Positions 47,519 through 58,615 of a stretch of DNA of 64,000 bases are shown here, piece by piece. Under the pieces are notes generated by a model. The model saw nothing but the letters and a program-made list of their open reading frames with translations. It was not told where the DNA came from and did no database searches. The DNA is taken from the NCBI RefSeq assembly GCF_009828855.1, contig NZ_WUAG01000002.1, positions 372,001 to 436,000 of the forward strand, written 5' to 3'. The stretch comes from Psychromonas sp. L1A2. Lineage in GTDB: Bacteria; Pseudomonadota; Gammaproteobacteria; Enterobacterales; Psychromonadaceae. Every line of letters starts with the position of its first letter. Within the stretch, counting starts at the first letter, position 1. The position numbers and the translations under genes were made by a program.

Positions 47519-48174
47519 CGAATCATAATTTATTGGTTAATACTTGGACATAAAGATACCTCTTTTAGCATACAAAAGTTAGTTGTTTTTTTGATAATGC
47601 GACTAAAAATGACTAAATATTCATTGATTAGTTTAAAATCGTTTCAGTATTTATAGATATACCCGTTACCATTCAACGTGGCAAATTCAGCAAGTAGTGA
47701 AGTGAACATATTCTAGGAAGAAAGAGGCAGATCTAACAAGTTAATTACTTATTTTAATAAAAATAGCCTATTAAAAGTACATCAGATAAATATTATGTAA
47801 AAAAGTGATGTTTAATAAGGATCAACAAGAATGATCAATCCATTATAAAATCACTAACGATTTAGAATATACCTCCAGAATAACCCCCCTAAAAGTCACA
47901 ATCAATTAATTTATAGCAATAAAAAACAAGTCTTTTTTTGTACATTAAATTTAAAAATTCCAATTTGTAATTCTGTAAATGTGACTTAGATCTCCTTTTG
48001 TCACTTATTTGTTATTTTTTCATGAAGTTGATCAGAAAACTATATAGATTGGTCTACGTAATTTAAAAGACACGGATTGTCTGCATTTTAGCTGAAGTAA
48101 TTTTTATTATTTCAGCACTTACCTAAAAAATAATTTAATTATTACAATTTTTAAATAATTCTAAATAAAGGAAA
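47519..48174. other. Intergenic region with a solo C-family end
   Basis: At 47656-47681 GATATACCCGTTACCATTCAACG matches the end of the element at 44658, without a partner end nearby. The rest is AT-rich and should contain the divergent promoters of the cyclase and porin genes; no box is clear enough to call. Confidence 0.5.
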
Positions 48175-49170
48175 ATGAATATGACATTCAACAAATATCT
48201 AATTGCTATTACATCTAGTGCTATCCTTTCAGCTCCACTTTCTGCTGCAACTATTTACAAAAATGAAACCCAGGAATTTAATATCGGTGGACGAGTTGAA
48301 GTCGGCGGTAATTTAACAGATGGTGATTATTCTGATGAATCTAATGTGCGTTTAAATGTAAATGGAAAAAATAAATTAAATGAAGATTTAACTGTTTTTG
48401 GTCGCTACGAATTCGAAATCACAGAAAATGAAGATGATAATGAAGCAAATTTAAATACACGTCACCTTTACGTGGGTGGTGAAACTAAATTCGGCACTCT
48501 TATTTATGGGCATCAAGAGAATGCTGTTACTTACCTAACAGACTTTACCGATTTAGCAGAAACGTATAGTGGTTACATTAACGAAAATACTGAAACATCG
48601 GCCGACCGCTCAAAAAACACATTACGTTACATTTATAAAACTGATGCATTAACTTTTCAAGCATCTGGAACACAAAATGCTAATAATAATGCCGATGGTT
48701 TTGGTTTGATGGCAGCTTATAAACTTACTCCTGAAGTTGAATTAGCTGCGGGTGTAACTAGCAGTGATCAAGAATATGGTAATGCAACAAATGTTGAAGA
48801 TACTGACACCTCAAACTCTTACATACTTGCAGCGAGATACACTAAAGGCAGTATTTATTTAGCGGCAACAGGTATGCAAGGTAATATTTCAGCTGATGGT
48901 ATTTCTGATTCTGATTTTGTAGCGGCAGATGCATTTGCCGCTTATTACTTTGGTGAAGATAACTCAAATATATTAAATATTGGTTATAGTTATTATTCTG
49001 CAGATGATATTGCATCATTAGAAACAAATTTTGTTTCACTAGAATATGCTCATTATATTGGTAACTTTGCAGTTTTTAGTAGTTATAAAATTGCATTAAA
49101 TAATGATACATCTAGTAGTACTGGTGACCGTGAAAATGAGTTGTTGTTAGGTGCTCGTTACGGTTTCTAA
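48175..49170 (+). CDS. Gram-negative general porin
   Basis: Outer-membrane beta-barrel protein of 331 residues. A signal peptide is cleaved near 25 (PLSA/ATIYK), and the first strand EFNIGGRVEVGGNL and the terminal LLGARYGF with a C-terminal Phe (Bam signal) are typical of OmpC/OmpF-type porins. The SLYVGGETKFGTLIYG-type segment (RHLYVGGETKFGTLIYG here) is conserved in marine porins. AAGGA before the ATG supports the start; a second ATG two codons later is possible. A terminator follows. Confidence 0.92.
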   Translation: MNMTFNKYLIAITSSAILSAPLSAATIYKNETQEFNIGGRVEVGGNLTDGDYSDESNVRLNVNGKNKLNEDLTVFGRYEFEITENEDDNEANLNTRHLYVGGETKFGTLIYGHQENAVTYLTDFTDLAETYSGYINENTETSADRSKNTLRYIYKTDALTFQASGTQNANNNADGFGLMAAYKLTPEVELAAGVTSSDQEYGNATNVEDTDTSNSYILAARYTKGSIYLAATGMQGNISADGISDSDFVAADAFAAYYFGEDNSNILNIGYSYYSADDIASLETNFVSLEYAHYIGNFAVFSSYKIALNNDTSSSTGDRENELLLGARYGF

Positions 49171-49195
49171 GTTTTATTAAGATAAAGAAATCTAT

Positions 49196-49221
49196 AAAGC
49201 ACTCAATAAGAGTGCTTTTTT
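49196..49221 (+). terminator. Rho-independent terminator after the porin gene
   Basis: AAAGCACTC and GAGTGCTTT arms with a short loop, followed by a T-run. Confidence 0.9.
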
Positions 49222-49303
49222 GATGGGAACAATTAAAACTATTTATCTAATCTAAGTTAACTTAAACTACTATTTTTAAAAACAATAAAAGCGAGAATTA
49301 AAT

Positions 49304-49900
49304 ATGAAGTTATGGAATGTTGTTGCAATTATTATTGTCAGTTTATTAAGCTCAAAAGTATTAGCAGATATTCATTTAAACACCCCCTCTCAGCTTAAAC
49401 TTAAAATTGTTAATAATGAAATATCAAAAAATGAGAATCCTCTCTTATTAGAGAATGGTAAAAATCAGATAGCATTTCGTTATGAGGATCGTTACCGCTC
49501 AGCTGGCGAAGATGTTTTTTTTACATCAGATATTATATTACTTACTTTTGAAGGTCATGATAACAACTACTTTATAACCTTACCTAAATTACGTACGGAA
49601 AGTGAACGTACAGACTTTAATAATAATCCTGTCATCATATTAAAAGATAGTAATGGTAAAACAGTATCATTTGAACAAGGGAAGCTACTCAAGAATGGTA
49701 TTCAATTTAATCGAGACTTAATCTCAGAACTGCGTGTTTACAATCAAACATCTCAACTCGCTTCATTAAAGCAACCGACGTCAATTATTAGCGTTGCCGA
49801 TAACCTGTCTGAAACTGATGTTGCAGGTAAAATGTTAGATTATTGGTACAGTAAAGCGGATGAAAAGACTCGTGCAGCATTTAAAGCTCGTATTAATTAG
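49304..49900 (+). CDS. DUF2057 (YccT-type) periplasmic protein
   Basis: Protein of 198 residues with a signal peptide (cleavage near 21, KVLA/DI) and a DUF2057 domain recognisable by QIAFRYEDRYRSAGED and DIILLTFEG. E. coli YccT has been linked to inhibition of curli formation; whether that holds here is unknown. The C-terminus ends DEKTRAAFKARIN. Next to the porin gene but separated by its terminator. Confidence 0.82.
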   Translation: MKLWNVVAIIIVSLLSSKVLADIHLNTPSQLKLKIVNNEISKNENPLLLENGKNQIAFRYEDRYRSAGEDVFFTSDIILLTFEGHDNNYFITLPKLRTESERTDFNNNPVIILKDSNGKTVSFEQGKLLKNGIQFNRDLISELRVYNQTSQLASLKQPTSIISVADNLSETDVAGKMLDYWYSKADEKTRAAFKARIN

Positions 49901-49918
49901 AATATGCACACATAAAAA

Positions 49919-49950
49919 TCAACTCTACTTGATTCAGTAGAGTTTGATAA
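49919..49950 (+). terminator. Weak hairpin after the DUF2057 gene
   Basis: CAACTCTACT and AGTAGAGTTTG form a moderate stem without a strong T-run. Termination is possible. Confidence 0.45.
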
Positions 49951-50563
49951 TTATGACTCTACATAATAGCCTCTCATTTCCCTCCCCTCTCGACCAAAAA
50001 ACAATAATAAAGTCTTATTAAATAAAAAATACAATTTTTTTTATATTTAGAAAGGGCAAGGTATCGACTCTAATGTCAAACACATCACTTTGTAAAAGCT
50101 AATGATCATATTAAAAATAAAACAAAATAAAACAATCACTTACATAAATATCGATTCGTTCATAAATCATTGAGACACGAGTAATTTTAATCGGTAAGGT
50201 TACCTAATCATTCCATACAACATCCTCTGACTCTATTAATTAGGGTTGTTACTGCTGTACAGAAAATAAATTAAAATCAACATATTAGAGCTGCAACAAC
50301 AAGTTGGCACATATATTTCATTATGATCTGTAATATTTATTTTTTACCTTTTAAGCCCTATATCACCTTAATCATGCACTAAGAAATGATAAAAGCGCAC
50401 TGAAATGAGGCGCAATGGCATTAAGATAATAAATATTAAACTTTATTGATTTTCGCATCAATGAAGCTTGTCTATTAAGCTTTGTATGTTATCTAAACAA
50501 TACTATTAATATTGAATTAGTTTAAATATCTTATGAGATTTGAACCTATATTAGGAGAATGCT
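49951..50563. other. Intergenic region upstream of the peptide-use operon
   Basis: About 610 bp of AT-rich DNA with no supported gene. It should hold the operon promoter. A ribosome site AGGAG occurs at 50553-50557, six bases before the TTG start of the next gene. Confidence 0.45.
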
Positions 50564-51538
50564 TTGACAACAATACCTGTTTGGGATGCTCATACTTGCG
50601 TTCCTTTAATTCCAGAGTACGATTTAGCATCGCTACAACGCCATATAGACTGTGGCGCCTATTATATTTCAATCAATATCGGGATGGACTTTAATCCACT
50701 GAGTGACATTATTCAGATAATAGCAGGATTTAGACAACGCATCAGCGAACTTGGTTTTTTAATACAAGTAGAAAGTTTTGCCGATGTTGAACGTGCCCAA
50801 CGCGAAGGTAAATTAGCCGTTTCCTTTGATTTAGAAGGTGGCGTCCCGTTACATGAAAGCTCTGCGATGGTCGGATTACTTGCAAAGCTTGGCGTACGAC
50901 AAATACATTTAGCCTACAACCGCAGTAATTCTCTTGCGGGTGGTTGTCACGATGAAGACATTGGCTTAACGCCTAAAGGCCGAGACATCGTAGATGCAAT
51001 TAATGCCAATAAATTGTTTATGGATGTTTCCCATACCGGATACCGCACCAGTATGGAAATTTTCGAATATTCAGATAAACCAGTGATCATTAGCCATGGC
51101 AATCCTCGCGCACTCAAAGATCACGGACGAAATTATCGAGATGATCAACTACAAGCCTGCGCAGCTAGCGGTGGCGTAGTTTGCATAAATGGCGTAGCGC
51201 GATTCTTAAACTCCCCACAAGCTAACGCTGAAAGTATGGTGGAAGCCATCGATTATCTCGTTCAATTAATTGGGCCATCGCATGTTGGTGTCGGCTTAGA
51301 TTATGTTTACGATAATCATTTAGATGATGGGCCAGAAGGTTTAGATACGAATCTTTGGTGGCCACCTGAACACGGTTACAGTAAATCAAATGATGGATTT
51401 TTAAATCTTTTATTCGCCCCACCAGAACGTTTTTTAGAAATGTCAGTACTACTTGAAAAACGCGGTTACACACAATCTGATATCGCTGCTATCTATGGAA
51501 AAAACATGAACACCCTAGCCCAAAAAGTTTGGTGTTAA
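50564..51538 (+). CDS. M19-family (renal dipeptidase type) peptidase
   Basis: Zn-dependent dipeptidase-family protein of 324 residues. The fold's ligands are H10 and position 12 in WDAHTC, E91 in DLEGG, H157 (DVSHTGY), H178 (SHGNPRAL) and D246 (GLDYVYD). The usual second N-terminal ligand Asp is Cys here (C12). It starts at TTG 50564 after AGGAG; an ATG five bases earlier is followed by TGA and makes only a two-codon frame. First gene of a run with a peptide ABC importer, suggesting cleavage of imported peptides. Confidence 0.85.
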   Translation: MTTIPVWDAHTCVPLIPEYDLASLQRHIDCGAYYISINIGMDFNPLSDIIQIIAGFRQRISELGFLIQVESFADVERAQREGKLAVSFDLEGGVPLHESSAMVGLLAKLGVRQIHLAYNRSNSLAGGCHDEDIGLTPKGRDIVDAINANKLFMDVSHTGYRTSMEIFEYSDKPVIISHGNPRALKDHGRNYRDDQLQACAASGGVVCINGVARFLNSPQANAESMVEAIDYLVQLIGPSHVGVGLDYVYDNHLDDGPEGLDTNLWWPPEHGYSKSNDGFLNLLFAPPERFLEMSVLLEKRGYTQSDIAAIYGKNMNTLAQKVWC

Positions 51539-51595
51539 CAACACATTGGAAATAAATCCCTTGGCCTCACCGTCAGGAAATACGGAGATAACAAT

Positions 51596-53200
51596 ATGAA
51601 GTCACTTTTTAAAAAAGCACGCCATCTAGCGGGAGCGACTAGTTTAGCCCTTGCGCTTTCTACAGGAACGGTATCAGCAGCGACACCTAAAGATTCTTTA
51701 GTTGTAGGCTGGCAATTCGATGACATTATTACGTTAGATAGCGCGGAAGCCTTTGAATTTTCTGGCTCTGAAGTTATCGGTAATACTTACGATCGTTTAA
51801 TTAGTTACGATCCAAATGATGTCTCAAAAATATTTGGCCAAGCAGCCGAAAGTTGGACAATCAGCGAAGATGGTAAAACCTTTACTTTTAAAATTCGCAA
51901 AGGGATTAAATTCGCCTCCGGTAATGAAATGACCGCTGAAGATGCTGCATTTTCATTACAACGTGCGGTTATCCTCAATAAAGCGCCTGGTTTTATATTA
52001 ACGCAATTTGGTCTTAACGAAACCAATGTAAAAGACAAAGTCAAAGCCATTGATGCAGATACACTCGTCTTTGAAACCGATAAAGCCTACGCACCAACTT
52101 TCGTTTTGTACTGTTTAACCGCAACCATTGCGTCTGTTGTAGATAAAGAAGAAGTCATGAAACATGCAGTCGATGGTGACATGGGGCTTGCTTGGTTACG
52201 TACTCATTATGCTGGTTCTGGCCCTTTCAAAGTAGAGCAATGGAAGCCGTCTGAGATTGTTGTATTAAGTGCCAATCAAAATTACTGGAATGGTGTTCCG
52301 GCAATGAAAAATGTGTTTCTTCGTCATATTGGTGAATCTTCCGTTCAACAATTATTACTTGAGAAAGGCGATATTGATATTGCCCGTAATCTCGAAACCG
52401 AACAGTTAAAAAGTGTTGAAGATAATAAAGAGATTAAGTTAATTAAAAAAGGTAAAGGGACGCTTTATTACCTTTCAATGAATATGAAAGATCCTATCTT
52501 AGCTAAACCTAAAGTGCAGCAAGCGCTTAAATATCTAATCGATTACAAAGGGTTAGCAGATACAGTTTGGGATGGGCGTGGTCAAATACAACAGGCATTT
52601 CTACCTAAAGGTTTCCTTGGTGCATTGGAAGATCAACCTTTCTCATTAGATGTTGAAAAAGCAAAAGGCTTATTAGCTGAAGCCGGTTATCCTGATGGTT
52701 TCGATGTTGAGTTAATCGTTCGAAACAGCCCTATACGTGTCGATACAGCAAAATCAATTCAAACAACCTTTGCTAAAGTAGGTATCAAGGTTAAGTTAAT
52801 TCCTATGGATGGTAAACAGGTTCTAACGGTATACCGTGCACGTAAACATCAACTATTCTTTGGCACATGGGGCCCAGATTATCAAGACCCACATACCAAT
52901 GCAGATACTTTTGCTAAGAACTTAGACAATAGCGATGATGCGAAATCAAAACCAGTCGCTTGGCGTAATGCCTACGCGCCCGAGCAAATGACTAAAGATA
53001 CCCTTGCCGCGTTAGTCGAACGCGATGCTGATAAACGTGCAGCGATGTATTTAGCAATTCAAAAGGAACATCAACAAACAGCACCTTTCGCTTTTGTTAT
53101 GCAAGAACAAGAAGTGGCTGGTGTGCGCGCTAACATCGATGGATTTGTATTAGGTCCATCCTTCGATAGTAACTCTTACAAAGACGTTGTGAAGAAATAA
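51596..53200 (+). CDS. Peptide ABC transporter, substrate-binding protein
   Basis: Periplasmic solute-binding protein of 534 residues in the Dpp/Opp class. A signal peptide is cleaved near 29 (TVSA/ATPK), and the lobes follow, with YDRLISYDPNDVS and the GSGPFKVEQWKPSE segment typical. Ligand specificity (dipeptide, oligopeptide, heme or other) cannot be told. The neighbouring dipeptidase favours di- or tripeptides. The TAATG overlap with the next gene shows coupling. Confidence 0.92.
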   Translation: MKSLFKKARHLAGATSLALALSTGTVSAATPKDSLVVGWQFDDIITLDSAEAFEFSGSEVIGNTYDRLISYDPNDVSKIFGQAAESWTISEDGKTFTFKIRKGIKFASGNEMTAEDAAFSLQRAVILNKAPGFILTQFGLNETNVKDKVKAIDADTLVFETDKAYAPTFVLYCLTATIASVVDKEEVMKHAVDGDMGLAWLRTHYAGSGPFKVEQWKPSEIVVLSANQNYWNGVPAMKNVFLRHIGESSVQQLLLEKGDIDIARNLETEQLKSVEDNKEIKLIKKGKGTLYYLSMNMKDPILAKPKVQQALKYLIDYKGLADTVWDGRGQIQQAFLPKGFLGALEDQPFSLDVEKAKGLLAEAGYPDGFDVELIVRNSPIRVDTAKSIQTTFAKVGIKVKLIPMDGKQVLTVYRARKHQLFFGTWGPDYQDPHTNADTFAKNLDNSDDAKSKPVAWRNAYAPEQMTKDTLAALVERDADKRAAMYLAIQKEHQQTAPFAFVMQEQEVAGVRANIDGFVLGPSFDSNSYKDVVKK

Positions 53201-54267
53201 TGGGAAGTTCATTATCAAAGGGCAGTTATCAGGCTGCCCTTTCTTCTTTTTATACTAAAAAAGCAAAACCATTCATCCACTTTTTCAGCATGTTGGCGAT
53301 GACTTTCTTCGGCTTATTATTACTCACCTTTGTGATTGGTCGAATGATGCCAACGGATCCCGTTATTGCTGTGATTGGTGATAAAGCACCTGAAGCACTC
53401 TATCAAGCCACATATATTGAAATGGGGCTAGATAAACCTATTATCACGCAGTTTTTCTACTATCTTAACGGTGTATTACATGGCGACTTAGGTACCTCTG
53501 TCCGTACTGCAAACTTAGTCACCGATGATATCCTTAACTATTTTCCAGCAACTCTAGAACTGGCTACCCTCGCCACTATTTTTGGCATGCTAATTGGTAT
53601 TCCAATGGGAGTCATTGCAGCCGTCAATCAGAATAAATGGCAAGATAATCTGGTTCGAATTTTTGGATTGATTGGACATAGTGCCCCGATATTTTGGCTA
53701 GCAATGATCGCCATTGTTGTTTTTTATCAACATTTAGATTGGGTTGCCGCACCAGAAGGTCGACTCAGTGTGATGTATGAATATACGCTTCCGAAAGTGA
53801 CCAATATGGTATTAATCGATACCGTATTAGCACAGGATTGGGGGGCCTTTAAAGATGCCTTTGCCCATATTCTTCTACCTGCTTCTTTACTTTCCTATTA
53901 CAGTATTGCCTACCTCAGCCGTATGACGCGATCTTTTATGCTTGATCAACTTAATCAAGAATATGTCATTACTGCACGGGTAAAAGGGGTTTCTGAAACC
54001 GCTATTATTTGGAAACACGCACTCGGTAATGCTTGGGTTCCTTTGATCACTGTTATCGCTCTGACCTATGCTTCTCTCTTAGAAGGGTCAGTGTTAACAG
54101 AAATTGTATTTTCTTGGCCGGGATTAGGCCGTTACATTACCGACGCCCTACTCGCAGCAGATATGAATGCGGTACTTGGGGGCACGATCGTCATCGGTTT
54201 CGTTTTTATACTGTTAAATTTAACCTCTGATTTGCTCTATAAAGTCTTTGATCCGAGAGTAAAATAA
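53200..54267 (+). CDS. Peptide ABC transporter permease (DppB-like)
   Basis: First inner-membrane permease of the importer, 355 residues with about six helices. The conserved EAA loop near the end of the membrane domain reads YVITARVKGVSETAIIWKHALGN. The N-terminus (about 35 residues before the first helix) is longer than typical DppB. Starts at the overlapping TAATG of the binding-protein gene. Confidence 0.92.
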   Translation: MGSSLSKGSYQAALSSFYTKKAKPFIHFFSMLAMTFFGLLLLTFVIGRMMPTDPVIAVIGDKAPEALYQATYIEMGLDKPIITQFFYYLNGVLHGDLGTSVRTANLVTDDILNYFPATLELATLATIFGMLIGIPMGVIAAVNQNKWQDNLVRIFGLIGHSAPIFWLAMIAIVVFYQHLDWVAAPEGRLSVMYEYTLPKVTNMVLIDTVLAQDWGAFKDAFAHILLPASLLSYYSIAYLSRMTRSFMLDQLNQEYVITARVKGVSETAIIWKHALGNAWVPLITVIALTYASLLEGSVLTEIVFSWPGLGRYITDALLAADMNAVLGGTIVIGFVFILLNLTSDLLYKVFDPRVK

Positions 54268-54322
54268 GCATGCATATTATTAAACATTTCTCATCCAGAA
54301 GTGCTAACAAGGTTTCTCAAAA

Positions 54323-55243
54323 ATGACGGAGTTAAAAGGTTGGCTGTTAGCCGAAAACCCAGATTCAAGAACACAAGCAGCATTTGGACGTGGCTATTTA
54401 GGTTGGCTACGCTTTTATCATAATCCTCTCGCTATGATTGGTTTTGTTATTGTGCTTACGCTGCTATTAATAGCGCTATTTGCCCCGTATATTGCCCCCG
54501 AAGGTATTAGCAGTGGACTAACAGGTGACGCCCTTAAAAATGCGCGTTTTCTACCGCCCTCTGCTGAGCATTGGTTTGGCACCGATGGCCAAGCTAACGA
54601 TGTGTTTAGTCGCATTGTTATTGGTAGCCGCATAACACTGGTTATCGTTGCCTTAGTGATTTTCACCGCCCCAATATTAGGCTTTATTATCGGTACTGTT
54701 TCTGGCTACTTTGGTGGTTGGGTTGATATCTTATTAATGCGTATTACTGATGTATTTCTCGCTTTTCCTAAATTAGTGCTCGCATTAGCACTCGCTGCAG
54801 CATTAGGTCGAGGTTTAGAGTCGGCCATTTTCGCGATTGCAATCACCTCTTGGCCCGCTTACGCACGACTCGCCAGAGCCGAGACATTAACGATTCGTAA
54901 TACCGATTACTTAGCAGCGGCAAAACTACAAGGCGCAAGTCATTGGCGATTAATTTCAGGCCATATCATGCCACTATGTTTATCGTCACTGATTGTCCGC
55001 GTCACCTTAGATATGGCGGGCATTATTTTAACCGCCGCTGGTTTAGGTTTCCTTGGTTTAGGTGCACAGCCTCCAACACCTGAATGGGGTGCAATGATTG
55101 CAGAAGGACGCGACTATATTCTCAGTTACTGGTGGTTAGCCACTTTTCCTGGCCTTGCCATTTTTACCGTGGCACTTGGCTTTAACCTTCTTGGTGACGG
55201 TCTACGCGATGTCTTAGATCCTAAATCAGGAGGTCAACATTAA
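54323..55243 (+). CDS. Peptide ABC transporter permease (DppC-like)
   Basis: Second permease of the importer, 306 residues with about six helices; the conserved loop contains DYLAAAKLQGASHWRLISGHI. The N-terminal cytoplasmic part lies before the first helix near 38. A 55-base gap from the first permease gene contains a small GC-poor stretch only. The stop overlaps the start of the next gene (TAATG). Confidence 0.92.
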   Translation: MTELKGWLLAENPDSRTQAAFGRGYLGWLRFYHNPLAMIGFVIVLTLLLIALFAPYIAPEGISSGLTGDALKNARFLPPSAEHWFGTDGQANDVFSRIVIGSRITLVIVALVIFTAPILGFIIGTVSGYFGGWVDILLMRITDVFLAFPKLVLALALAAALGRGLESAIFAIAITSWPAYARLARAETLTIRNTDYLAAAKLQGASHWRLISGHIMPLCLSSLIVRVTLDMAGIILTAAGLGFLGLGAQPPTPEWGAMIAEGRDYILSYWWLATFPGLAIFTVALGFNLLGDGLRDVLDPKSGGQH

Positions 55244-56121
55244 TGACTTATATCGGTAATAACAATGATCACTTACTGGAAGTGAAAAATCTCAATGTTG
55301 AATTCCCCTCGGTACATGGTTCAGTTCATGCGGTGCGTGATATCTCTTTTAAAATGGGCCATGAGAAAATAGCCATTGTAGGTGAATCAGGTTCAGGAAA
55401 ATCACAAACAGGCCGTGCTATATTAGGATTGAGCCCAGGTAATGTCACCGCCGAAAAACTCTTTTTTGATGGCGTAGATTTACAAGGTTTGTCCGCTCGT
55501 GATTATCGAGAGATCCGTGGTAAACGTATTTCAATGGTGATGCAAGATCCTAAATACTCACTTAATCCGGTAATGACCATCGGTAAGCAAATGATTGAAG
55601 CTTGTCAAATCCAAATGAAGGTTTCTAAGAAACAAGCTATATCCCGCTGTATTGAGATGCTTGAAGCCGTTCGTATCCGAAATCCGCAACGGGTTTTTAA
55701 TGCCCATCCTCATGAAGTATCGGGAGGCATGGGACAACGTATTATGATTGCCATGATGTTATTGTCGAGCCCAGACCTGTTAATTGCTGATGAACCGACA
55801 TCGGCATTAGATGTAACCGTACAATTGCAAGTGTTAGCGATTATGGATGACCTGGTCAAAGAGCGAGGGATGGGGTTGATTTTAATTTCTCATGACTTGC
55901 CTTTAGTCGCGAGTTTCTGCGATCGTATCTTAGTGATGTATGCCGGAAGAATTGTTGAAGAGCTCGAAGCCAGTAAGTTAGATCAAGCGCAACATCCTTA
56001 TACAAAAGGGTTGCTTTCCTGCTTACCCAATAACGCGATTAAAGGGCAACCTTTAGCAACATTGCAACGTCAAGATAGTTGGTTAAATGGAACCTTAAAT
56101 GCACAGGGTAAATTACTATGA
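55243..56121 (+). CDS. Peptide ABC transporter ATPase (DppD-like)
   Basis: ATP-binding subunit of 292 residues. Walker A is GESGSGKS; the signature is SGGMGQR (a variant of LSGGQ, common in DppD); Walker B is LLIADEPTSALD, and the switch His is in ISHDLPLV. A C-terminal extension ends GQPLATLQRQDSW. Together with the next gene it makes a heterodimer that powers uptake. Confidence 0.94.
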   Translation: MTYIGNNNDHLLEVKNLNVEFPSVHGSVHAVRDISFKMGHEKIAIVGESGSGKSQTGRAILGLSPGNVTAEKLFFDGVDLQGLSARDYREIRGKRISMVMQDPKYSLNPVMTIGKQMIEACQIQMKVSKKQAISRCIEMLEAVRIRNPQRVFNAHPHEVSGGMGQRIMIAMMLLSSPDLLIADEPTSALDVTVQLQVLAIMDDLVKERGMGLILISHDLPLVASFCDRILVMYAGRIVEELEASKLDQAQHPYTKGLLSCLPNNAIKGQPLATLQRQDSWLNGTLNAQGKLL

Positions 56122-56915
56122 ACAGCCAACAAACACACGCCATTGCAATCAATGACTTATCTATTCATTTTGGCAGCGGTGAAGCATTAGTAAAAGCCGT
56201 CAATCATGTTTCTTTTAACGTGCCAGCTCAACAATCCTTTGGATTGGTCGGTGAGTCAGGATCGGGAAAATCAACTATTTTACGTGCACTTGCCGGATTA
56301 AATACGCATTGTAATGGACAGATGTTACTGGAAGGTGAAGCCTTACAAAGCAAACGCAATAAAGCTTTTTATAAAAAAGTACAGATGGTATTCCAAGATC
56401 CCTATGCATCACTTCACCCACGTCATACCATCGATAAAATTCTGGCAGAACCACTTGCGATTCATGGGTTTAAAGAAACAGAACAACGTATCGCAAAGGT
56501 GATGGATCAAGTTGCCCTACCGAATAAATTTCGATTTCGTTATCCGCATCAACTATCAGGTGGTCAACGTCAACGTGTCGCCATTGCCCGCGCCTTAATT
56601 TTAGAACCTAAAATTTTATTACTCGATGAACCGACCTCTGCACTCGATGTTTCCATACAGGCTGAGATCCTCAATTTATTAAATCAATTACGTGAAGAGT
56701 TATCGTTAACTTATGTGTTAGTGAGTCATGATTTAGCGGTTGTTTCTTATATGTGTGAGCAAATTGCAGTGATGCAGCATGGTAAATTAGTCGAACTTTT
56801 ACAGGTCGATCAACAAGGAAAAACTAGCGCTAAAGACCCCTATACTTTGCAACTTAATTTAGCTTCAAAGGGTTATAATCGAGAAGTCATTGAGCAATTT
56901 ATCGACCATGATTGA
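56118..56915 (+). CDS. Peptide ABC transporter ATPase (DppF-like)
   Basis: Second ATP-binding subunit, 265 residues, overlapping the previous gene by four bases (ATGA). Walker A is GESGSGKS, signature LSGGQRQRVAIA, Walker B ILLLDEPTSALD, and the VSHDLAVV switch. At 265 residues it is shorter than E. coli DppF and lacks much of the usual C-terminal oligopeptide-transport extension; only about 30 residues follow the core. End of the operon. Confidence 0.94.
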   Translation: MNSQQTHAIAINDLSIHFGSGEALVKAVNHVSFNVPAQQSFGLVGESGSGKSTILRALAGLNTHCNGQMLLEGEALQSKRNKAFYKKVQMVFQDPYASLHPRHTIDKILAEPLAIHGFKETEQRIAKVMDQVALPNKFRFRYPHQLSGGQRQRVAIARALILEPKILLLDEPTSALDVSIQAEILNLLNQLREELSLTYVLVSHDLAVVSYMCEQIAVMQHGKLVELLQVDQQGKTSAKDPYTLQLNLASKGYNREVIEQFIDHD

Positions 56916-57207
56916 TATGTTAAATTACTATGAGCAGGCAATGGACAAATCGTTATGATCCAGAAAAATATGACTAAAAGATAAGTTTATGATGAGTATT
57001 GATCAAGTTTTGGGAGATGACAGTTATTGAAGCCTAAATAACCAACTCAGGGTCTGTTGTTATGTTGATTTTAAGACGAATAAACAGGCTAAGGTTAAAA
57101 ACATGATATCAAAAGCTTTATTTGCGAATACATTACCAGAAAAGTAGTTATTAAAGGCTGATGCAACAAAAATGCAATGGCAATGAACATTAAAAGCAAC
57201 TTTAAAA
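56916..57207. other. Intergenic region, no gene seen
   Basis: Convergent gap between the peptide operon and add. Several short frames with stops are visible, but none has a good ribosome site; I considered a decayed transposase here and could not support it. Confidence 0.4.
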
Positions 57208-57242
57208 TATAAACAGGGTTAACAAATTACCCCTGTTTATAT
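57208..57242 (-). terminator. Hairpin terminator after add
   Basis: On the minus strand AAACAGGGGT pairs with ACCCTGTTT across a loop of about nine bases and is followed by A/T-rich sequence with several T, 27 bases after the add stop. Confidence 0.75.
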
Positions 57243-57268
57243 TTAGCTAAAAATTAAAAGCTAAAGCC

Positions 57269-58270
57269 TTAACGTTTTGCCGCTATATCACGCAAAGCTT
57301 GTTTTTCAGCCGCTGATAAGAATGCGATGTCTAAGCCATTAATTTGTGCTTGTTTTATTTGCTCAAGAGATAAACCAGCTTTAGGTGCGGCAACTTCATA
57401 CTCAAATGGTAATTCAATTCCTTCTACTGCTGGGTCATCAGTATTAAGTGATGCCATCACACCGTGATTTAAGAATTTTTTAATAGGATGTTGAGTAATA
57501 TCTGCAATAGTACTGGTTTGTATATTTGAAGTGATACAAGACTCAATACCAATATTGTTTGCTACAAGGTAATCCATTAATTTAAGATCTTCGATTGCTT
57601 TTACACCGTGACCAATACGCTCAGCACCTAATGATTGAATTGCCTGCCATATACTTTCAGGCCCAGCAGCTTCACCAGCATGCACAGTTACACGTAAGCC
57701 CGCATCACGTACTTGTTTAAAGTGATTAACAAATAAGTCGCCAGGTTTTCCTAATTCGTCACCCGCTAAATCGATAGCAACTAATTTATCTTTTTGACTA
57801 AGCAGCCCATCTAATTCAATTTGGCATGCTTCTGTACCGTAAGAACGACTCATAATACCGATTAAATTAGTTTTAACGTTAAAGTCTTTACTACCTGCAG
57901 CAACACCAGCGACAACTGCTTCAACAACGCCCTGAACAGGTAAGTTATGCTTTAACGCCATGTAATATGGAGAGAAACGTAATTCCGTATAATCAATACG
58001 AGCATTTTTAGCATCTTCAACGTTTTCATAAGCGACTTGATAACAAGCTTCTAAGTCCCCTAAAACGGCAACACCTAAGTCTAATTTTGATAAAAAAGCA
58101 ACTAAATTAGGTTCAGCTTCAATAACTTGCACAAATGGACGCAATGCTTCAATGCTCGTTGCAGGTAATGTTAAATTAAATTTTTGGCCTAATTGTAAAA
58201 TGGTTTCAATACGAATATTGCCATCTAAATGTCGATGTATATCAGTTAGAGGTAAATTGTTAGTGATCAT
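57269..58270 (-). CDS. add: Adenosine deaminase
   Basis: Converts adenosine and deoxyadenosine to inosine and deoxyinosine. Zn ligands H12 and H14 (DIHRHLDGN), a His in TVHAGEAAG near 197 with the catalytic Glu, and an Asp in NTDDPAV near 278 match E. coli Add, and the 333-residue length is identical to it. It is last in a series of nucleoside genes on the minus strand and feeds DeoD. A 13-bp inverted repeat lies in its leader. Confidence 0.96.
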
Positions 58271-58304
58271 TTTTTATTCCTTTGTATTGAAACCCTAATG
58301 GAAC

Positions 58305-58355
58305 TCAAGCCACCTTAAAATGCAATTTCCGAGGTTACAAAATAAGGTAGCTTGA
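58305..58355 (-). repeat. 13-bp inverted repeat in the add leader
   Basis: TCAAGCCACCTTA (58305-58317) and TAAGGTAGCTTGA (58343-58355) pair at 12 of 13 positions across a 25-base loop. It lies 35-85 bases upstream of the add ATG on the minus strand. It may be a leader stem-loop or a repeat; no purine-riboswitch core was recognised. The rest of the 58271-58615 gap shows nothing else. Confidence 0.55.
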
Positions 58356-58615
58356 ATCTCACTAGTATAAAGAGTGTAATTATTTTTGTTACTGGCAAAT
58401 CTTTAATAAATCTACATTTAAAACATATTTTAAGTTAGTTAACATAATATGTTGTTGACAGTTTATCATTGAAGTTTAACTGTTCATTAGCAGCAAAAAA
58501 TATTTTATTAAAGACCATAAAAATCGCCTTTATTTTTAAATTAGTTTTGTATCGCCTTACCATTTTATATCACCTTACTTGCTATAACTTGATTAGTTAT
58601 AGTTTAGTACTACTT

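Follow-up and report, generated by a model that had tools for sequence, protein, structure and literature searches.

The closest described relatives of the enzyme considered here are M19 metallo-dipeptidases such as human DPEP1 (1itq), Streptomyces Sco3058 (3id7/3itc) and GliJ (5lwz), whose canonical zinc-dipeptidase motif consists of HxD together with Glu, His, His and Asp; the metal- or substrate-binding roles ascribed below to single residues are those which we take them to have in known M19 enzymes. M19 enzymes favour C-terminal D-residues. With respect to gene context, the nearest parallels are the Ddp/Dpp and Ykf operons of E. coli and B. subtilis, in which dipeptide importer genes adjoin peptidase genes. 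In B. subtilis, ykfA-D adjoins dppB-E, and YkfC leaves L-Ala-D-Glu (PMC2954226).

The 64-kb stretch of DNA analysed here (the window), from a marine Psychromonas, contains an M19 gene as the first of six same-strand genes, followed by genes for a family-5 binding protein, two permeases and two ATPases (Table 1). An AGGAG stands shortly before its TTG start codon, no hydrophobic stretch is visible by eye in the N-terminus (MTTIPVWDAH), and Pfam places the product firmly in the family (PF01244, E 1.3e-66, 225.4 bits versus a cut-off of 26). Like DPEP1, Sco3058 and GliJ, the protein has the M19 profile and five of the six ligand positions, H10 as well as E91, H157, H178 and D246, but unlike these enzymes it carries HxC instead of HxD, with D-A-H-T-C aligned opposite the D-x-H-x-D of HxD relatives, and possesses D89 and Y118. 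The sequence-only reading, which had proposed that Cys replaces a metal-binding Asp at position 12 while the other four ligands are kept and the gene leads a peptide-importer operon, is thus borne out in all three respects. Codon 12 is TGC (50597-50599), two bases off GAC and three off GAT. A sequencing error or a lone mutant, the former considered in the same reading as a possible flaw, is excluded because two to three base changes would be needed and the relatives agree: a 99% identical gene copy in Psychromonas sp. SP041 has the same motif, and Cys occupies the motif position in 80/80 loci retained from a scan of named genomes (the best 80 of 145 relatives).

Table 1. Features of the M19 operon and its insertion site; positions are those of the window.
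Feature	Position	Strand	Basis
M19 (PF01244) protein, HxC/HxG clade, 324 aa, TTG start	50564..51538	+	ORF, Pfam, alignment
H10-T11-C12 codons, altered HxD motif	50591..50599	+	sequence, alignment
D89-L90-E91 codons, clade-specific Asp two residues before conserved Glu	50828..50836	+	sequence, alignment, model
Extracellular solute-binding protein, family 5 (SBP_bac_5)	51596..53200	+	Pfam 2.9e-87
Importer permease	53200..54267	+	best NCBIfam model DppB, below cut-off (263.5 of 590)
Importer permease	54323..55243	+	best NCBIfam model D,D-dipeptide permease, below cut-off (313.5 of 434)
Importer ATPase, OppD/DppD-like	55243..56121	+	Pfam, NCBIfam
Importer ATPase, DppF/OppF-like	56118..56915	+	Pfam, NCBIfam
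Acquired stretch, approximate extent ~7.3 kb	49897..57197		alignment of the unoccupied G023 site stops at 49896 and resumes at 57198

Whole genomes were searched for M19 proteins with protein queries, profiles and Pfam models, with extra regions added, while the named genomes were scanned with DNA patterns built from a 7-row alignment. The 212 proteins aligned derive from the whole-genome searches and the named-genome scan, and some rows represent the same gene twice (e.g. L012/L104 and L003/L040); plasmid genes, the eight best of 367 tblastn records and therefore close relatives by choice, were kept separate. The aligned rows fall into HxC (90), HxG (3), HxD (53), His followed by another residue at the Asp position (3), a class without the His (57) and rows with an unaligned N-terminus (6). 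An HxC clade, the existence of which alignment with M19 members had been suggested to reveal, is real: the motif is fixed throughout a widespread proteobacterial group with C12 identical in 90/90 rows, and the small HxG group stands alongside. In a quick unrooted tree, computed from 59 of the 212 rows after masking of the motif columns, HxC and HxG group together with an SH-aLRT support of 99, HxC alone with 80 and the non-His class with 91, and these three classes split from HxD at 99. E91 is present in 93/93 HxC/HxG rows, and H157, H178 and D246 in 92/93, the remaining row (L066) being broken off, so that all complete rows have five of the six ligand positions. The plasmid genes comprise five HxC members, from Paraburkholderia, Streptomyces, Variovorax, Novosphingobium and Nocardia, two of them Actinomycetota, and three HxG members, from Rhizobium, Mesorhizobium and Rahnella. 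The Streptomyces (L222) and Nocardia (L227) plasmid genes read H-C-C and thus have a second Cys in the motif, while the gene on Paraburkholderia caribensis plasmid 2 (L220) has an in-frame stop, with an IS6-family transposase gene shortly upstream. No description of an HxC or HxG M19 group was found in the titles and opening abstract lines of the literature searched.

What is new here is an Asp coupled to this altered motif; the change of the metal site is clade-wide and real, while the fold and the probable role in peptide use are ordinary. D89 is found in 93/93 HxC/HxG rows, in 0/53 HxD rows, where the position holds G, S, H, A or T, in 0/57 non-His rows (one gapped there) and in 0/3 rows with His and another residue; 2/6 unaligned rows also have it, namely the Psychromonas gene and its 99% copy, whose N-terminus was clipped in that extraction. 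The named-genome scan is biased in this respect, as one of its two patterns contains D89, with 55 of the 80 loci carrying the non-D89 pattern only, 16 both and 9 the D89 pattern only; D89 is equally present in 13/13 rows from outside the scan, the Psychromonas protein included, and in 8/8 plasmid genes. Seven of these eight read F-D-[LI]-E, the Paraburkholderia copy having its in-frame stop at that site. All three HxG rows and all three plasmid HxG genes keep D89 and E91 without Cys-12; as judged from the alignment, D89 accordingly is a companion of the loss of Asp-12 and not of the gain of Cys, and Cys is not a necessary compensation, since HxG members do without it. As all HxC/HxG rows form one group, the gain of D89 and the loss of D12, although completely linked in the sample, may represent a single event rather than repeated covariation. 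The possibility that another Asp fills the site, raised in the sequence-only reading as an objection to itself, may therefore partly apply to D89, and does not apply to D8, which was rejected as a substitute because Asp stands there in 53/53 HxD rows and Glu in 39/90 HxC rows.

An AlphaFold2 model built from a 49-row clade alignment (mean pLDDT 95.3) places H10 and C12 on a predicted strand 6-12 and D89 and E91 on a predicted strand 84-91, where the latter two would face the same way because they are two residues apart. The model has the M19 barrel fold, as its top 17 PDB matches are all M19 (Z 36.0-41.0) and the next fold follows at Z 17.9; among the best are 2i5g (41.0), 9h0b (38.0), 3itc (37.8) and 1itq (37.2), and the match extends over nearly the full chain for DPEP1 (37.2), Sco3058 (37.5-37.8) and GliJ (36.9). 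Because D89 tracks the loss of Asp-12, the metal site, instead of being just Cys-ligated, may be a rebuilt one whose carboxylate has shifted from strand 1 to strand 3, which would make D89 a metal ligand: the strand-1 Asp would have turned into Cys or Gly, and D89 on strand 3 would take over or support the lost ligand. In this reading C12 might still be in contact with the metal, but across the clade it would not be needed. The fact that C12 is invariant among HxC proteins argues for some role of this residue and counts against this reading. A possible, if doubtful, alternative is therefore that the C12 thiolate itself replaces D12 as a ligand and alters metal preference or affinity, with D89 in the second shell, for instance holding H10. 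In subtype V amidohydrolases (D-aminoacylase, PpOngB) a Cys inside the same barrel is indeed a zinc ligand (PMC12017989). There, however, this Cys is part of a Cys/His/His beta site, whereas the Psychromonas Cys lies on predicted strand 1 within the HxD motif and E91 is retained, so the protein is not a subtype V member; and the HxG genes, in the aligned rows and on plasmids alike, speak against an obligatory thiolate. The PDB lists GliJ mutants D38N and D38H, which would bear directly on the loss of D12 if GliJ D38 is the HxD Asp.

The best solved match by both sequence and fold is the Pseudomonas aeruginosa amidohydrolase 2i5g, a member of the non-His class, which is the sister group in the unrooted tree and also includes proteins from other genomes of the genus (L004-L008). 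Y118, N119 and G127 are common to this class and the HxC/HxG clade, the Psychromonas protein included. In contrast to the latter, the 57 non-His rows lack H10 and D12, have Gln at position 91 in 54/57 and never possess D89; the Psychromonas protein, with H10 and E91 kept and in a separate tree group, is not one of them. Two further M19 proteins (L180 and L182) have HxS/HxT, E91 replaced by Leu and H157 by Gln, and are, from these residues, likely inactive as metallo-peptidases. While such ligand-losing relatives, together with Gln at position 91 of the non-His class, show that M19 proteins which have lost ligand positions exist, it is highly improbable that the Psychromonas protein is a pseudoenzyme that has lost catalysis, as every complete HxC/HxG row maintains five of the six ligand positions and has gained an Asp in addition.

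In Psychromonas, NCBIfam names the importer genes at the family level only, as all matches are below cut-off. The system does not qualify as a Ddp (D,D-dipeptide) system, with the best permease models below cut-off and no M15 gene within the 64-kb window, where YkfC-like NlpC/P60 and DdpX-like genes were likewise not found. A YkfC-like gene elsewhere in the genome was considered and rejected: the sole NlpC/P60 match, of 193 aa, is nearest to the murein DD-endopeptidase/LD-carboxypeptidase model and below its cut-off (152 of 186). The neighbourhoods of relatives were assessed by codon-scored gene calling and by tblastn searches of the 80 scan loci with the five importer proteins as queries. Sixteen of the 44 loci whose flanks reach 5.5 kb or more on each side contain three or more importer genes; in 11/44 the same importer is present at at least 50% identity (L040, L041, L042, L045, L069, L074, L095, L099, L103, L110 and L114), and five have a more distant one, namely L062 (38-44%) and four loci in which the importer lies on the other strand (L068, L076, L085 and L113, 26-45%), these four being followed downstream by a gene of the Glu dehydrogenase family. 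Twelve loci with shorter flanks likewise contain at least three importer genes. In 28/44 long-flank loci tblastn detected no importer up to 9 kb away; loci from Pseudomonas, Inquilinus and Cardiobacteriaceae give stray ATPase matches at most. The M19 gene opens the cluster in the Psychromonas/Marinomonas type and closes it in the Comamonadaceae one, and the Rahnella and Rhizobium HxG genes sit after importer operons. A Dpp/Ddp-like importer is thus a travelling companion of the HxC/HxG gene in several proteobacterial lineages. Some HxC relatives moreover resemble the Ddp/Ykf operons in carrying a YkfC-like or DdpX-like gene: the last gene of the operon in L041, L042 and L045 is a YkfC-like NlpC/P60 gene, and an M15 D-Ala-D-Ala dipeptidase-family gene lies 5' of the binding protein gene in L091, L107 and L109 (L107 and L109 being near-copies), each in 3/89 stretches searched. 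Unlike in the Ddp/Dpp/Ykf operons, the constant partner here is the M19-type protein.

The substrate pocket appears to differ as well. Among the residues at least 95% fixed in HxC/HxG and seldom found in the two other classes are W7, N38, G40, M41, D42, D89, Q113, G210 and P267, D42 being a second clade-specific candidate acid from the alignment. Position 118 is Tyr in HxC/HxG versus His or Trp in HxD rows, and position 210 is Gly versus mostly Phe or Tyr, which suggests a changed pocket; the sequence-only reading had named a changed metal, a changed specificity or a new reaction as possibilities. These replacements could also mean that the clade hydrolyses something other than a dipeptide, e.g. 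a cyclic or N-acyl amide, and that the changes in strands 1-3 and the pocket reflect the new substrate; in L086 and L100 hydantoinase/oxoprolinase A and B genes are directly followed by the HxC gene and then by an amidase gene, in agreement with such a role. With the Dpp/Ddp-like importer and peptidase neighbours of other loci against it, this possibility is nevertheless unlikely.

The HxC gene occurs in 2/24 genomes of the genus. In genome G023 only 267 bp separate the two genes between which the operon lies in the window, representing an unoccupied site, which by BLAST aligns with 48001-49896 (81%) and 57198-58488 (85%) of the window with ~190 bp of G023 unaligned between. The GC content is 41.6% for the operon versus 32.1% on the left side, 37.9% on the right side and 35.8% for the whole window, and the Psychromonas importer proteins have counterparts of 81-91% identity in L041, L042 and L045 (Marinomonas and an Oceanospirillaceae MAG). 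Horizontal acquisition of the operon island is the simplest account. The longest exact match between the flanks of the island is a 14-base inverted one. In one member of the genus (G022:C1:2202237-2203234) the adenosine deaminase homologue is split in two pieces, one with a stop.

Taken at a probability of roughly 0.4, the protein is a cytoplasmic metallo-dipeptidase of the M19 fold with a rearranged metal site that acts on imported, perhaps cell-wall-derived, dipeptides. The Dpp/Ddp-like ABC importer would bring in the dipeptides, which the neighbouring M19 enzyme probably hydrolyses by the presumably usual chemistry, the attack of a metal-bound water on the peptide carbonyl. Most likely the substrates would be peptidoglycan dipeptides with a D-residue, and L-Ala-D-Glu is our guess from the YkfC-like neighbour and the M19 preference for such residues. 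Outside the window, the Psychromonas genome encodes a D-Glu catabolic set, with consecutive genes for DgcN, DgcA and a D-amino-acid transaminase (L232:8348-11296). DgcN is present in 9/24 genomes of the genus, among them both with the HxC gene; as it occurs in so many more genomes than that gene, its presence speaks but weakly for a D-Glu link. As the DgcA-like protein is also just above the cut-off for L-Ala-D/L-Glu epimerase, cleavage of L-Ala-D-Glu by the M19 enzyme is not required. Rather unlikely as a whole is the most elaborate version of the dipeptidase reading, in which the move of the carboxylate from D12 on strand 1 to D89 on strand 3 freed position 12 for Cys, as a metal-tuning thiolate, or for Gly, and in which importer and M19 enzyme constitute an epimerase-free route that directly cuts imported cell-wall dipeptides, L-Ala-D-Glu for example, and delivers D-Glu to a DgcN/DgcA-type pathway.

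With respect to the family, the clade would be a case, open to testing, in which nature has re-routed a metal ligand within the amidohydrolase superfamily, and a gene that is called 'membrane dipeptidase' in these bacteria does not necessarily encode the HxD site of the textbooks. Should L-Ala-D-Glu or a similar dipeptide be the substrate, the enzyme would add a step to the use of D-amino-acid cell-wall debris by marine and soil bacteria.
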